DNA from: Urechis unicinctus
Lineage: Eukaryota; Annelida; Polychaeta; Xenopneusta; Urechidae
Length of the DNA: 64,000 nucleotides
Assembly (NCBI GenBank): GCA_034190875.2
Contig: CM067345.1
Coordinates: forward strand, 30,257,345 to 30,321,344
Reading direction: 5' to 3'
Shown here: one piece after another, positions 13,152-47,240 of the stretch
Numbering within the stretch: the first letter of the stretch is position 1
How the letters are laid out: each line of letters begins with the position of its first letter
Notes under the pieces: generated by a model
The model's input: the letters and a program-made list of their open reading frames with translations, nothing else
What the model was told of the DNA's origin: nothing
Databases searched by the model: none
Position numbers and translations under genes: made by a program

Positions 13152-13769
13152 GAAAGAGCTAGTGTGTAGCGTTAGATAAAGCATTCAACCCACAATAGAG
13201 AAAACAACCACTGCGATGAGCCGCCCGGCAAGACAAGACACCCACTACGCTGACCAGGTGTTGGTCTCTGTGTGATCTCTGTGGCCTCCATATCCTACTG
13301 CTGGTTGCCCTGCTGGAAATGTACACAACCTGCCTCGTGTGTAGGTTGTCAGGAATAACCTGAAGATCTAAACGAACCTTGCATGTGATATAAATATGGC
13401 ATAGTTAGTTGGCCAATGCCAAGCTTCCGAACGCCGAGCCGATTCCGGGCGCTGACCCCAATGTATATATAACTTCATCGAGGGCGAAATGCTTGATTGC
13501 CGAAAAGATTCTGTTGAACATCAAAAACACTTATCGCAAAATATGATGTGCCGGGTGGAAGACATAAATAACGCGTGTGAATGAGAGAAGGGTGACGCAG
13601 AGGCGCTGGTTCCTTGCATACCCCGTAGTATATATAGATAGCAGCTCGGCGCTCGGAGGCATTTTATCGGGAACCGAGCGCCTGCGGTCGAGACGAAAAT
13701 GCGTCATGTTAGTAAATTCGCTGACCTCAAACCAACCATGCATTCTGCTTCTCATCAACCCAACTGATT

Positions 13770-13862
13770 AACATTACCATTAACATTAATATTAGCATTA
13801 ACATTAGCATTAACAGTAGCATTATCATTAGCATTAGCATTAACATTAACATTAACATTGAC
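13770..13862. repeat. ATTAAC/ATTAGC hexamer array
   Basis: About 15 hexamers alternating ATTAAC, ATTAGC and variants. It does not match a telomere motif. Confidence 0.9.
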
Positions 13863-14394
13863 ATCCAATGTTTGCTCCAGCGCCCACATGTGGATCAATC
13901 TGGTCGCTGGGTGTACGTGACGACGACCTTATCGATCAGTGAGGTGGAAGGTCAAGGACGGTGATGGAATGTCACCATCCAAAGGCGACAGAGGAACATG
14001 CCAATAACTGATGCAAGAGCGATCAATTTGCCGTAAAACACAATCTGGGGGGAAAACAATGTCAGAGTGAATGAGTCACCTGCTCACCTTGCATCCGGGT
14101 ACAATTTGAGTTATGTTTGTAGGGAACCTATTGCCTGATGAAGTTATTTACGGCATCATCAACAACCGAGCTGATGTAAGAGCTGCATGTGCATGCGCAC
14201 AGAGTGCAAGGGGTTGTTGCTGACTGTACGAAAACGAAACACACATGGCCTATTACCAAACGATCACAGCTAGCCTCCAACACAGCCAGATCAGTGAGCG
14301 CTACATCTGGACTCCTGGTAACGTTCTAGATGGTTTGCTGTAGATAGAGCTGGCTTAAGGGGTTCACGGTGATGGCTGCATGCGCACGAGCAAG

Positions 14395-14610
14395 TCGGGG
14401 AGCTAGTGGTTGGGTATGAGACGTGTAGCTAGTGGTTGGGTATGAGACGTGTAGCTAGTGGTAGGGTATGAGACGTGTAGCTAGTGGTAGGGTATGAGAC
14501 GTGTAACTAGTGGTAGGGTAAGAGGTGTGTAGCTAGGGGTAGGGTATGAGACATGTATCTTTGAGACGTGCGGTTAGAGGTAGGCTTTGAGACGTATTGT
14601 TGGTGCAATG
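14395..14610. repeat. 26-bp minisatellite (forward), about 8 copies
   Basis: Unit core GGGTATGAGACGTGTAGCTA. This is the reverse complement of the unit at 21190-22480, 33695-35130 and 46285-46830. Confidence 0.95.
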
Positions 14611-14760
14611 GTATGAGTCGAGTTCTGTCACATGTAACATATAGCCTGGTTTCAGATAAGCTGATCAGTCGTAAGCAATCAATGGATTGATCATGTGAAC
14701 CAGCCAGCGACGGTCACCATCCCTGCCAGCTCGAGGATAACATGGTCGGTGTTTATGTAA

Positions 14761-15499
14761 TGCATAAGCATTATTCATTCTCCTTTTTATAATATAAAAG
14801 TGATGACCTTATTTGATCAGAGTGCGATGCAGCTTATGTTTGATGGCAGTCTGTGTCTGAAGTGGTGTTTATGAACCAATTTATCTGCGGGGCTATACTG
14901 TGTTCACGCGCTGCTTAATGGTACATCCGCGCTAACTGCGTGATGTACTCGTGTCATGTTGACATACTCGTGTCATGTTGGCATACTCGTGTCATGTTGG
15001 CGCTCTTGAGGCTCAATTGGCACACAGTGTTGGTCATAATAAGTGTGTGTCACACATTTACAATGGTAAAGATGAGTGTGATTTCAGTATGTTTTAAAAT
15101 ACGACACCTAATTTGCCGAAAACAAGGAATAATCACTATTTACTAGCAAAGAGAGGGCTTGATAAAAGACGAAGTGTATAGTCAACTGTTTCTTCGCTTA
15201 ATTCCACAATGTTAGTGACAATATAACCAATACAACATTGATCCTTGCTTGTTGTGGTAATAAGAATTTCTAAATGCGGGTATCAATTCGACATGCTATA
15301 GTTCCACGCGAACAATGCATCATTGCGTCATACTGGTCTTAAAACCACGCCATTACGAGAAATGGTAACATTCATTGTGCTTGGTAACTTTTCAACCTGA
15401 TATGATTTCACGGTCATGACTTCTTGTTGACCCCAACATTTCGCCACGACCAAAGTTCGCTCACTTTCATGTCTGAACTTTGAGGATCAAGATATAAAT
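14761..15499. other. Spacer with short triplet repeat
   Basis: Three 19-20-base copies of CTCGTGTCATGTTGGCATA lie at 14947-15001. Nothing else was supported. Confidence 0.5.
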
Positions 15500-44190: not shown

Positions 44191-44412
44191 ATATATATAT
44201 ATATATATATATATATATATATATATATATATATATATATATATATATATATATATATATATATATATATATATATAGATATATATATATATATATATAT
44301 ATATATATATATATATATATATATATATATATATATATATATATATATATATATAAATATATATATATGTATAAACATAAGCATAAGCATATATATATAC
44401 ATATATATATAC
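44191..44412. repeat. (TA)n microsatellite
   Basis: Over 160 bases of TA with one GATA break, then a degenerate ATATATACAT tail. Confidence 0.98.
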
Positions 44413-44959
44413 AATGTTATTGATTATTCTTAATCCTATATGTAGGATTCAATGTCTTGCATTTCTAGGCAATCAATGGTCATTCGCTTGTAAAACGTCC
44501 ATCCTGTTAATCTACTATGGTTGTTTGTTTATTTGACAAAGCGCGTTTAATACAGCTTTAGTCGTCATTCAATTATATAATTTATCTGCTGATTGAGCGT
44601 TTTGAGTTCCACTGTTCCATAAAAGGAAGATGATCAGCTATGTTCTCCTCGCAAAGGCAACTGACGATGTTAAGGTGCTGAAGATTGTTATAGAATATAT
44701 GGCTGATTCAAGTTGTTGTATATTCAATAATTCTCTTGGCAGTGTTATAAGTTTAGAGACTAATGGTTCAAAAATTGTTTTATCCTGAGGTCCCAAGTCT
44801 TATTCGATCACCCAAATGCTATAACCAGGAATTCATGGTTTTAGGGTGGTCTGGTGAATCCCCAGCACCACTACGGTTGTGCAAAGACCACTTTGAAGTA
44901 AGTGGTATGGGTGTGCGTGCATTTGACAGACACTCCCTCAAAGAATACTAACAGTGACC
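44413..44959. other. Unannotated spacer
   Basis: No supportable gene or repeat. Confidence 0.4.
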
Positions 44960-45532
44960 AGTGGGGATGGAGGTACCGAGTGGATGGTTTCAATGGCGTC
45001 CTCGTCTAGGCTAGCCTTGGTACTGAGTGGATGGTGTCGATGGCGTCCTCGTATTGGCTAGCCTTGGTACTGAGTGGATGGTTTCAATAGCGTCTTCGTC
45101 TAGGCTAGGCTTGGTAGAGAGTAGATGGTTTCAATGGCGTCCTCGTATTGGCTAGCCTTGGTACTGAGTGGATGGTTTCAATAGCGTCTTCGTCTAGGCT
45201 AGGCTTGGTAGAGAGTAGATGGTTTCAATGGCGTCCTCGTCTTGGCTAGCGTTGGTACTGAGTGGATGGTATCGATGGCGTCTTCGTCTAGGCTAGCCTT
45301 GGTACTGAGTGGATGGTATCGATGGCGTCTTCGTCTAGGCTAGCCTTGGTACTGAGTGGATGGTATCGATGGCGTCTTCGTCTAGGCTAGCCTTGGTACT
45401 GAGTGGATGGTATCGATGGCGTCCTCGTCTAGGCTAGCCTTGGTACTGAGTGGATGGTATCGATGGCGTCTTCGTCTAGGCTAGCCTTGGTACTGAGTGG
45501 ATGGCATCGATGGCGTCCTCGTCTAGGCTATC
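44960..45532. repeat. 47-bp minisatellite, about 12 copies
   Basis: Unit core GGTACTGAGTGGATGGTATC, then GATGGCGTC and a CTAGGCTAGCCT end. A two-unit block with AATAGCGTC and GGTAGAGAG variants is duplicated at about 45078 and 45178. Confidence 0.97.
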
Positions 45533-46284
45533 AATAATTGATGGTGAATAACCAATGATTGGTAGGTTGCATATTCTAACCAAAATAGTGCTATCTGCCT
45601 GCTCTCTGCTTGATATTCTTTCAAGTTCAGGTTTCACTTAGAACAATCATAGAAAAAAATTGCAATCAATTTTGGAATGAAATTTTAATACTTACGGTGA
45701 GAATTGCAAATCTATCAACATAAAGCTTTTTGCTACCTTAACGTTTATTAAGTGAATCATTACAGTAATGTGATACATTGGCGCAGTTATGATCAGGGTC
45801 AAGGTCAGTGAGAAATCCGTGGCCTGGTTAAGGAACATGACCGCTTAATACATAAATTTAAACCGGTTAAACACAGAGTGTGGGGGGGGGGGGGATTTCG
45901 ATCCTTTATAAATGAATTGAGATAAATGTTCATTTTTAAATAGCCTTAGTTCGATTTTGGAAATGAGCATATTTATGAAAAAGCCTATAGAAAGTGCAAA
46001 GTAGTGCAAAGATACAATTGCATATTAGAAAAATAATAATCACTACGCGAGTGATTCAATAAACGTGCGAGCAAAATGGCGGCGAAAGGAAACCAACAAC
46101 ATCACTGCGGCTCTACTACGTGACTCAAACCACGTGTTCAGAAGATATAAGGTTACGTTGTTTGAAAAAAACGCAATCAATAATACATTATCCTCGATAA
46201 ACATTCTACCACCTGATCGAAATGATCAAAACATTGAGTGGAATCATTTGCTGCCCGACAGATGCGAACATATTGCCACCGTAT
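45533..46284. other. Spacer with G-run
   Basis: A 12-base or longer G-run lies at about 45881-45894. The frame 46065-46286 is unrecognised. Confidence 0.4.
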
Positions 46285-47240
46285 GAATACGTCTCATGAC
46301 TTCCCATGAGCTACAAAACTCATACCCTACCAGTAGCTACACGTCTCATACGTTACACTAGCTTCACTTCTTATGCCCTCCCACTAGCTTCACGTCTCAT
46401 ACCCAACCATTAGCTACACTTCTTATACCCTTCCACTAGCAACACGTCTCACATCCTACATCTAGTTTGACGTCTTAAACCTTGCCACTTGCAACACGTC
46501 TCATACTCTACCACCATCTACACGTCTCACACTCTTCCATTAGTTTCACGTCTCATACCCTGCCACTAGTTACACTTCTTATACAATACCACTATCTACA
46601 CTTCTCATACCCTGCCACTAGCTACACGTCTCATACCCTACCACTAGCTACACGTCTCATACCCTAACACAAGCTACACGTCTCATACCCTACCTCTAGC
46701 TACACGTCTCATACCCTACCACTAGCAACACGTCTCATAGCCTATCACTAGCAACACGTCTCATAGCCTATCACTAGCTGCACATCTCACACCCTACCAC
46801 TAGCTACACGTCTCATACCCAACCACTGATTGATCGTCTCGTAATCTACAGCACCTTAAACTGGCAATACGGACATAATCTTTTCTCAGCTTTCTACATA
46901 GCCTCGCGATTATTTATCTCGAATGTTGTACTGTGTTCAAAGCGTCTTTAACTATATTCCACTTGAGCCCTTTCCAATAGCATTAAAGGACAACTCGTGA
47001 CTTCTTTATCAGCAAAATGTTGCATTTTCATTTCCTACTGTTCCCGCTTCCTCATTTTGGTGTCTCTTTAGGGCATGATGTACAACTCAAGTGCAGGATG
47101 TGATGGGCATCCAAAAACATCATCCGCGTGCTAGAAGTGCAGATATGGAGAAGCGATGACTCATCCAAGGAATACTGCTCGTCTTCACACAGATATCAGC
47201 ATTATCATCAGGGTAGAGGAAGTTTTGTCTGGGTAGGTCT
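46285..47240 (-). mobile_element. Composite dispersed repeat, locus 5 (reverse)
   Basis: The 26-bp array (46285-46830, about 21 units, core ACGTCTCATACCCTACCACT) is followed at 47170-47240 by the reverse complement of the left module of locus 2 (GATATCAGCAT...TTTTGTCTGGGTAGG). The order array-then-module in reverse agrees with module-then-array in locus 2, which supports one element family. Confidence 0.65.

Follow-up and report, generated by a model that had tools for sequence, protein, structure and literature searches.

A 26-bp minisatellite cluster in Urechis unicinctus that probably multiplied locally rather than by genome-wide transposition

Six copies (A–F) of one repeat, all old and scrambled and three in each orientation, lie within 34 kb (13.17–47.28 kb) of the window, the whole 64,000-nucleotide stretch of Urechis unicinctus DNA analyzed here. 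Our favored explanation, which we hold to be fairly probable, is that an old unit was duplicated and inverted within its own neighborhood instead of transposing across the genome, and that the tandem arrays within it served as exchange points. An earlier note on the same DNA had proposed a dispersed repeat family that carries the minisatellite as the inside of a moving element.

Arrays and flanking modules in the cluster

The array core, ACGTCTCATACCC, matches the window 104 times at up to one mismatch, as compared with 0.04 matches expected. Counting it bore out the five array loci of the earlier note (14.4, 18.7, 21.2, 33.7, and 46.3 kb, with a 24-bp variant at 18.7 kb). The consensus 26-bp unit has G or C at 13 of its 26 positions and is the same in A, E, F, and a copy of C on another contig, C5.

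Window flanks were compared by BLAST with the arrays masked. In these whole-window searches, the left modules at 17983-18148 and 25557-25714 were found to be 63% identical (E 1.7e-6), and 25640-25704 matched 47238-47174 in reverse at 76% (E 9e-5). An additional left module that was absent from the earlier note lies at 13175-13275; it matches the left module of C at 67% (E 4.5e-6, whole window). The middle module is shared by 13687-13781, 18263-18356, and 25809-25871 and continues to 14043 and 18592, with its first part being weak for the A-B pair alone (E 4.7, whole-window search). End modules occupy 14649-14756, 19394-19549, and 19713-19783 on one strand and 21093-20975 and 33657-33469 on the other; the one at 19.4 kb had been described as reversed, which is wrong relative to that at 14.65 kb, both being on the + strand. 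A weak end module at 46287-46203, also previously missed, has an E of 0.029 by BLAST and is recovered by the trained model.

Module profiles were also trained without a given copy and run over 264 kb with the arrays unmasked. Eleven of the twelve left-out copies were regained (E 2.6e-14 to 4.5e-3, nine with E <1e-6), the copy A end module being the one that its left-out profile failed to regain in the 264 kb. The weakest recoveries, the end modules of E (E 2.2e-3) and F (E 4.5e-3), exceed unexplained matches by no great margin, given a middle-module match at 42477-42574 with E 2.6e-3 and 0.012 in the leave-one-out runs over 264 kb. Nevertheless, the array-masked BLAST and the left-out recoveries confirm that left, middle, and end modules are shared beside the arrays. 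Rfam gave no match at gathering score, and there was no tRNA call. Regarding a possible coding origin, aligned module pieces contain stops in many frames and have some stop-free frames, and their gaps are not multiples of three.

Several other tandem repeats were compared with the modules. The 43-bp (35281) and 32-bp (36230) arrays did not score above 60 shuffled units. The 33-bp and 26-bp (25880) units just equaled the maximum of 60 shuffled units, so their tie to the modules rests on BLAST and the profiles; with the middle model, the last unit of the 33-bp array plus its flank gave E 4.3e-7 (leave-one-out E 9.9e-8 to 9.9e-6). The possible M2 of copy E was detected in one of three middle leave-one-out tests (E 2.4e-3 and 0.011) and by BLAST (E 0.007), and it lies inside a duplicated stretch (35786-35965 and 36042-36224, 93%). 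Judged by eye, M1 of copy A comprises about 1.6 units of short repeat. The partial end module of B is 84.5% identical to that of D, which is inverted and 1.24 kb away.

The order left-middle-array-end is seen in A and B; F, in which no middle module was seen, fits it, and D and E are compatible with it. Copy C in the window has neither a 26-bp array nor an end module, and in its C5 counterpart the latter part of a split middle module comes after the 26-bp array instead of before it. The claim that module order is the same in each orientation therefore holds for most copies, with C and its counterpart as exceptions. Collinear homology among copies does not extend past the module limits. Neighbors are not generally closest kin, which speaks against local duplication: C and F, 21 kb apart, are 76% identical over 66 bp. 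The order and orientation shared by most copies support the view that the arrays would stem from one ancestral composite unit rather than from five separate origins. To this extent, the earlier interpretation is supported; its dispersed mobile element is not, given the core, pattern, and inverted-repeat searches below.

Features of copies A–F and associated repeats, in window positions (left-out E, E-value from a profile trained without that copy)
Feature	Position	Strand	Evidence or remark
Copy A left module	13165..13295	+	BLAST 67% to C, E 1.4e-9; left-out E 5.7e-8
Copy A middle module, first part (M0)	13687..13781	+	BLAST
Copy A middle module, M1 + M2	13875..14055	+	65% to B, E 3.7e-12; left-out E 5.7e-14
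Copy A 26-bp array, 6 units	14401..14557	+	core reads on - strand
Copy A end module	14655..14765	+	65% to D, E 3.6e-6; missed when left out
Copy B left module	17983..18150	+	BLAST; left-out E 2.4e-10
Copy B middle module	18263..18602	+	BLAST; left-out E 3.9e-7
Copy B 29-bp tandem array of M1, inside middle module	18393-18485	+	
Copy B 24-bp variant array, 25 units	18714..19313	+	unit cutting
Copy B end module, E-like	19353..19549	+	BLAST, trained model; left-out E 5.7e-7
Copy B second end module, partial	19713..19783	+	BLAST, trained model
Copy D end module	20970..21093	-	BLAST, trained model; left-out E 7.3e-7
Copy D 26-bp array, 50 units	21182..22479	-	core on + strand
Segment duplicated on C5	22619..33970		right border inside array E
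Copy C left module	25557..25715	+	BLAST; left-out E 2.6e-14
Copy C middle module	25809..26028	+	BLAST
Copy C amplified M1, 26-bp array	25880-26028	+	sequence unlike array core
33-bp array from middle-module M2	28172..28957	+	copy C, other sequence between
Copy E end module	33465..33662	-	BLAST, trained model; left-out E 2.2e-3
Copy E 26-bp array	33697..35134	-	core on + strand
Possible M2 of copy E	35872..36229	-	weak
Copy F end module	46182..46300	-	trained model; left-out E 4.5e-3
Copy F 26-bp array, ~20 units	46319..46827	-	core on + strand
Copy F left module	47160..47280	-	BLAST, left-module model; left-out E 8.4e-8

Genome-wide searches for the core and modules

The whole-genome searches covered the 1.19-Gb assembly. 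Among the 100 core matches listed, 72 were in the window and 28 at C5:48.413-48.419 Mb, totals that equal direct sequence counts (67 + 5 and 27 + 1, respectively). None of the matches listed lay elsewhere, which is slightly few given that the control gave 5. A DNA query consisting of the end module and array returned at least 57 matches. Two of these come from a 25-bp array of weak similarity on C4 (29.278 Mb), and the others lie in the window or on C5. The left-module pattern had 57 matches, 4 of them known copies and 53 outside, versus 66 for the reversed control, and with 2 mismatches all three of its matches fell in the cluster or on C5. The end-module pattern had 7 matches, 3 of them known copies; the remaining 4 versus 2 for the control count against confinement. 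The patterns pass over 1 of 5 known left modules and 3 of the 6 known end ones, so they could also overlook diverged copies in other places. Twenty of the 57 outside matches were inspected (all 4 end matches and 16 of the 53 left matches, chosen by hand), and none was a convincing copy by the three module models, which gave one weak match of 12.9 bits at a site picked for the left pattern. Over 264 kb, matches to the three models at E <=10 were restricted to the window and its C5 duplicate. Within the sensitivity of these searches, the copies appear to be confined to one neighborhood and a younger duplicate of part of it on another chromosome.

The strongest competitor of local duplication, though an unlikely one in our estimation, is an extinct transposon, non-autonomous and Helentron/HINE- or MITE-like, whose interior held tandem repeats and whose local hops left old copies, those elsewhere having been lost or become too diverged to see. 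Such an element would fit the common module order of A, B, and F, the copies in both orientations, the end of collinear homology at the modules, and a left flank/array/right flank plan like that reported for oyster Cg_HINE (PMC7492417). Local transposition, too, would leave copies facing either way that share no longer flanks, a point against local duplication. However, the core is restricted to the cluster and C5 among the matches listed, the module patterns are without clear excess genome-wide, and no inverted repeat links the left flank to the right one in A, B, or F beyond shuffles (297, 233, and 265 of 300 as good), in a test where the ends are undefined at base level and decay could mask repeats. 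These results leave the claim of a dispersed mobile element unsupported.

The C5 duplicate and the history of the arrays

Window positions 22,619 to ~33,970 are duplicated at ~97% identity on C5 (48,409,403 to ~48,418,405), and each side of the pair carries insertions and replaced blocks. The right border of the duplicate falls inside a 26-bp array, where E-type units switch to D-type: about ten E-type units, the first of them with the irregularities of E, are followed by D-type CTCTAGATACA units. The middle module after this array is nearer to that of A than to that of B. Because of the passage from E-type to D-type units, an excised circle joining arrays D and E was considered as the origin of the C5 copy; it was rejected because the sequence following array D (22,480-22,618) does not come after the C5 array. 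From the sequence, we infer that an exchange between arrays would have caused the border.

Array units diverge less than the modules that flank them: the mean p of full units to the 26-mer is 0.085-0.19 (with the 24-bp array of B left out), and module identities between non-duplicate copies are 41-67% (61-76% for the best parts by BLAST). The arrays would accordingly be younger, or better homogenized, than their own flanks. One explanation, somewhat less likely still than a transposon, is that the copies of an older repeat were separate before the 26-bp array entered them, by gene conversion or insertion, giving flanks and arrays different histories. The lower divergence of the units and the identical consensus of copies A, E, and F and of the C counterpart on C5 agree with this, as does the lack of this array in C in the window when its C5 counterpart has one in a different position. 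On the other hand, the arrays of A, B, and F all lie between a left or middle module and an end module, B carries its own diverged 24-bp form, and independent decay of units would keep the majority consensus ancestral without any transfer.

It is very improbable that function retains the arrays or modules, such as a role as repeated regulatory sites close to the Headcase gene. The units are better kept than the flanks and an ORF with Headcase domains is present at 56340-57509, but the two unit halves differ little in the four older arrays (13.1% versus 15.7% differences, p 0.07), although positions within the unit vary unevenly, such that these arrays give no clear sign of constraint on the 26-mer, and the Rfam search is likewise negative. 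Chance or low complexity as the source of the flank similarity can be dismissed almost entirely: several single pairwise matches are weak and the one at 42477-42574 is unexplained, but pairwise matches persist with the arrays masked and nearly all left-out copies are regained.

Proposed local multiplication and known systems

Local duplication and inversion would have started from an ancestral unit of ~1.5 kb, composed of the left module, a middle module with its own short repeat, the 26-bp minisatellite, and the end module. This unit would then have been copied and inverted repeatedly in one chromosomal neighborhood, after which the copies decayed. Its internal tandem arrays would give homology for non-allelic exchange, and one exchange within array E may have set the border of a ~10-kb partial duplication of the cluster onto another chromosome. 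We infer that the unit multiplied by local duplication, and the arrays probably acted as exchange points. The neighborhood is rich in minisatellites, with arrays covering 24.3% of the window, 17.8% of its 60-kb flanks, and 0.2% of five 10-kb pieces elsewhere, the comparison being between 50 kb at five places and a window picked for its repeats. Further old local pairs (63-70%) occur within the 124-kb region. More tentatively, the region could be a self-reinforcing minisatellite domain, in which internal segments of the old unit amplify into arrays that differ by copy, the arrays exchange units across loci and chromosomes and stay alike while their flanks decay, and array-bounded blocks reach new chromosomes. 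The case indicates that an apparent mobile element in one window can prove local after a genome search. It also offers a natural instance of an interchromosomal duplication whose border falls in a minisatellite array, and, if confirmed, such arrays would be testable as exchange points.

The yeast minisatellites CEB1, CEB25, and HRAS1 are reported to raise chromosomal rearrangement rates (PMC3486850), and the Urechis array likewise lies at a rearrangement border, here as judged from sequence; a point of difference is its consensus unit, with G or C at 13 of 26 positions. Cg_HINE, a non-autonomous, Helentron-associated element of Crassostrea gigas, is reported to comprise 7,151 dispersed arrays in 13 clusters, with monomers mostly of 140-180 bp, subterminal inverted repeats, and a 3' palindrome; it resembles the Urechis repeat in having a tandem array between left and right flanks shared by copies (PMC7492417). 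Unlike Cg_HINE, the Urechis repeat has a 26-bp unit and six local copies, and no such inverted repeats were found. Helentron/HINE elements would also be expected to have an autonomous partner with a Rep-helicase. The central array between shared flanks expected of them is present, but the core and module-pattern searches, of limited sensitivity to diverged copies, did not reveal many dispersed copies, and the flanks of A, B, and F have neither the subterminal inverted repeats of that group nor, with ends undefined at base level, the terminal inverted repeats of MITEs. Local segmental duplication clusters consist of related blocks grouped in one region in direct and inverted order. The Urechis blocks are similarly arranged, with one interchromosomal copy, but differ in being old, 1-2 kb in size, and in having arrays derived from more than one internal segment. 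Overall, the Urechis cluster looks more like the product of local duplication than like a jumping element.

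Copies and modules of the composite repeat

The window, C4:30,257,345-30,321,344 of a 1.19-Gb assembly, has eukaryotic content: an ORF with Headcase domains and many long minisatellites. When arrays were located in it, the positions that an earlier note had given for the 26-bp minisatellite were confirmed, and self-comparison with arrays masked bore out its observation that separate loci have modules in common. Three module types were seen (left, middle and end), which together with the array make up copies A–F of a composite repeat whose usual order is left, middle, array, end. 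Two module copies are additions to the earlier list: a left module in copy A (13.17 kb) and an end module in copy F (46.2 kb).

Copies of the composite repeat and other features, in window coordinates
Feature	Position	Strand	Description
Copy A	13.17-14.77 kb	+	all parts present
Copy B	17.98-19.78 kb	+	all parts present
Copy D	20.97-22.48 kb	-	end and array seen
Copy C	25.56-28.96 kb	+	without 26-bp array, without end module
Copy E	33.47-35.13 or 36.23 kb	-	end, array, possible middle
Copy F	46.18-47.28 kb	-	end, array, left
Palindrome	33322-33433		112 bp, adjoining copy E, 93% self-complementary
Reverse transcriptase match	37747-38118	-	weak (Pfam RVT_1, E 1e-4, below cut-off)
Other repeat family	49361-49643, 53694-53861, 61615-61770		28-bp internal repeat; matched by sampled pieces elsewhere
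Diverged local pairs	-2794/11799, -5300/7132, -14728/-9745, -14284/-7701, 15193/23541

The flank similarity proved better than chance. Leave-one-out profiles, whose training copies were initially chosen through pairwise matches, were searched against 264 kb (the unmasked window plus 200 kb of other sequence) and regained 11 of 12 left-out copies with E-values from 2.6e-14 to 4.5e-3, nine with values under 1e-6. The one not regained in this search was copy A's end module. Two left-out middle-module profiles also gave an unexplained match at 42477-42574 on the minus strand (E 2.6e-3 and 0.012). It equals the two weakest recoveries in strength, and either a further decayed copy or a chance match may account for it. 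With models built from all copies and E-values up to 10, matches in the 264 kb were confined to the window and to the C5 duplicate, a ~97%-identical copy of part of the cluster on contig C5. They comprised the known copies, a partial second end module of B and 33-bp arrays; the left model also matched weakly inside an array at 30.67 kb (E 0.069).

Within the middle module lies a further short repeat, which amounts to about 1.6 units in copy A (by eye), to a 29-bp array of 3 units in copy B and, in copy C, to a 26-bp array of 5.7 units that is unlike the core array in sequence. A 33-bp array of 22 units beside copy C is matched by the second half of the middle module. Amplification thus seems to have acted on different parts of the unit from copy to copy. 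In a simple comparison with 60 shuffled units, the links of the copy C 26-bp and 33-bp units to the modules only match the highest shuffled value; they are based on the alignments that include flanks.

Arrays, flanks and the C5 duplicate

Copies A, E and F and the C5 counterpart of C have the same consensus of the core unit; that of D differs from it by one base, that of array E on C5 by two, and B has a 24-bp form. Leaving out B, the divergence of full units from the 26-mer is 8.5-19%. Identity between modules of different copies is 41-67%, in alignments short and rough enough to make the contrast less firm than these figures. Over the best parts by BLAST, module identity is 61-76%, and B's second end module reaches 84.5% with D. 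It is likelier that the arrays are less diverged than their flanks through younger age or exchange. A shared consensus would also persist if units had decayed independently from one ancestor. In the older arrays the unit halves differ little (13.1% and 15.7%).

The window from 22,619 on matches C5 from 48,409,403 with 96.8% identity over 3,236 aligned bases, and three further pieces are 97.4-97.5% identical. Both sequences show insertions and blocks that have been replaced. Left of these positions the sequences are unlike. The right border falls within array E: the C5 array starts with about ten E-type units, the irregular first ones being the same as in array E, and continues with D-type units and then a reversed middle module nearer to A's than to B's. 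On this sequence we read the border as a putative exchange between array E and the array of another copy. The C5 counterpart of copy C carries about 8 units of the 26-bp array that copy C lacks in the window, and there, contrary to the usual order, it precedes the 33-bp array. Separately, insertions in the C5 duplicate at window positions 32489-32493 and 32686-32690 have 5-bp overlaps resembling target duplications, and one of the two, some 650 bp long, shares 84% identity with window 51164-51864. Window 26600-26720, in a stretch missing from the duplicate, looks by eye like a tRNA-derived SINE head.

Distribution in the genome

A search of the assembly for an 18-letter array core with at most one mismatch gave at least 100 matches. 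Of those listed, 72 fell within the window and the other 28 within C5:48.413-48.419 Mb, in agreement with direct counts in both sequences; the reversed control gave 5. The 52 exact matches, first among those listed, all lay in these two places. DNA queries are sensitive to close relatives only, and their results are lower bounds. End module plus array gave at least 57 matches, all in the window or C5 but two, which fall in a 25-bp array at C4:29.278 Mb. The unit of that array resembles the 26-bp one, and the three module models found no match there. Among the matches listed, the end module of D retrieved itself and B, and the left and middle modules of C retrieved themselves and C5.

A left-module pattern allowing 3 mismatches matched 57 times, including 4 known copies (control 66), and an end-module pattern 7 times, including 3 known copies (control 2). 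Twenty of the 57 outside matches were inspected (4/4 end and 16/53 left, the latter hand-chosen), one of them with no more than about 35 bases between it and the end of the sequence inspected. On these 20 the three models gave a single weak match (12.9 bits), at a place selected by the left pattern. Diverged copies elsewhere are thus made less likely, and only that, because the patterns overlook 1/5 known left and 3/6 known end modules.

Setting and comparison with known elements

Arrays (period ≥10, ≥3 copies) make up 24.3% of the window and 17.8% of its flanking 60 kb. At two places picked for array matches, coverage was 13.8% (40 kb at C4:29.26-29.30 Mb) and 5.9% (50 kb that include the C5 duplicate); across five 10-kb pieces at round coordinates it was 0.2%. 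The 124-kb region contains further old local pairs (63-70% identity) that are not modules of the composite repeat. Given the high coverage and these pairs, the cluster seems to sit in a domain gaining tandem and local repeats. Minisatellites of many different units occur in the window and its flanks.

The six copies represent one old composite repeat that was most likely multiplied locally, with the arrays as likely exchange points. The earlier note's reading as a dispersed element is not supported. The composite repeat shares its layout with array-bearing non-autonomous elements such as Cg_HINE (PMC7492417), but as far as tested it differs from them in dispersal and in inverted repeats.
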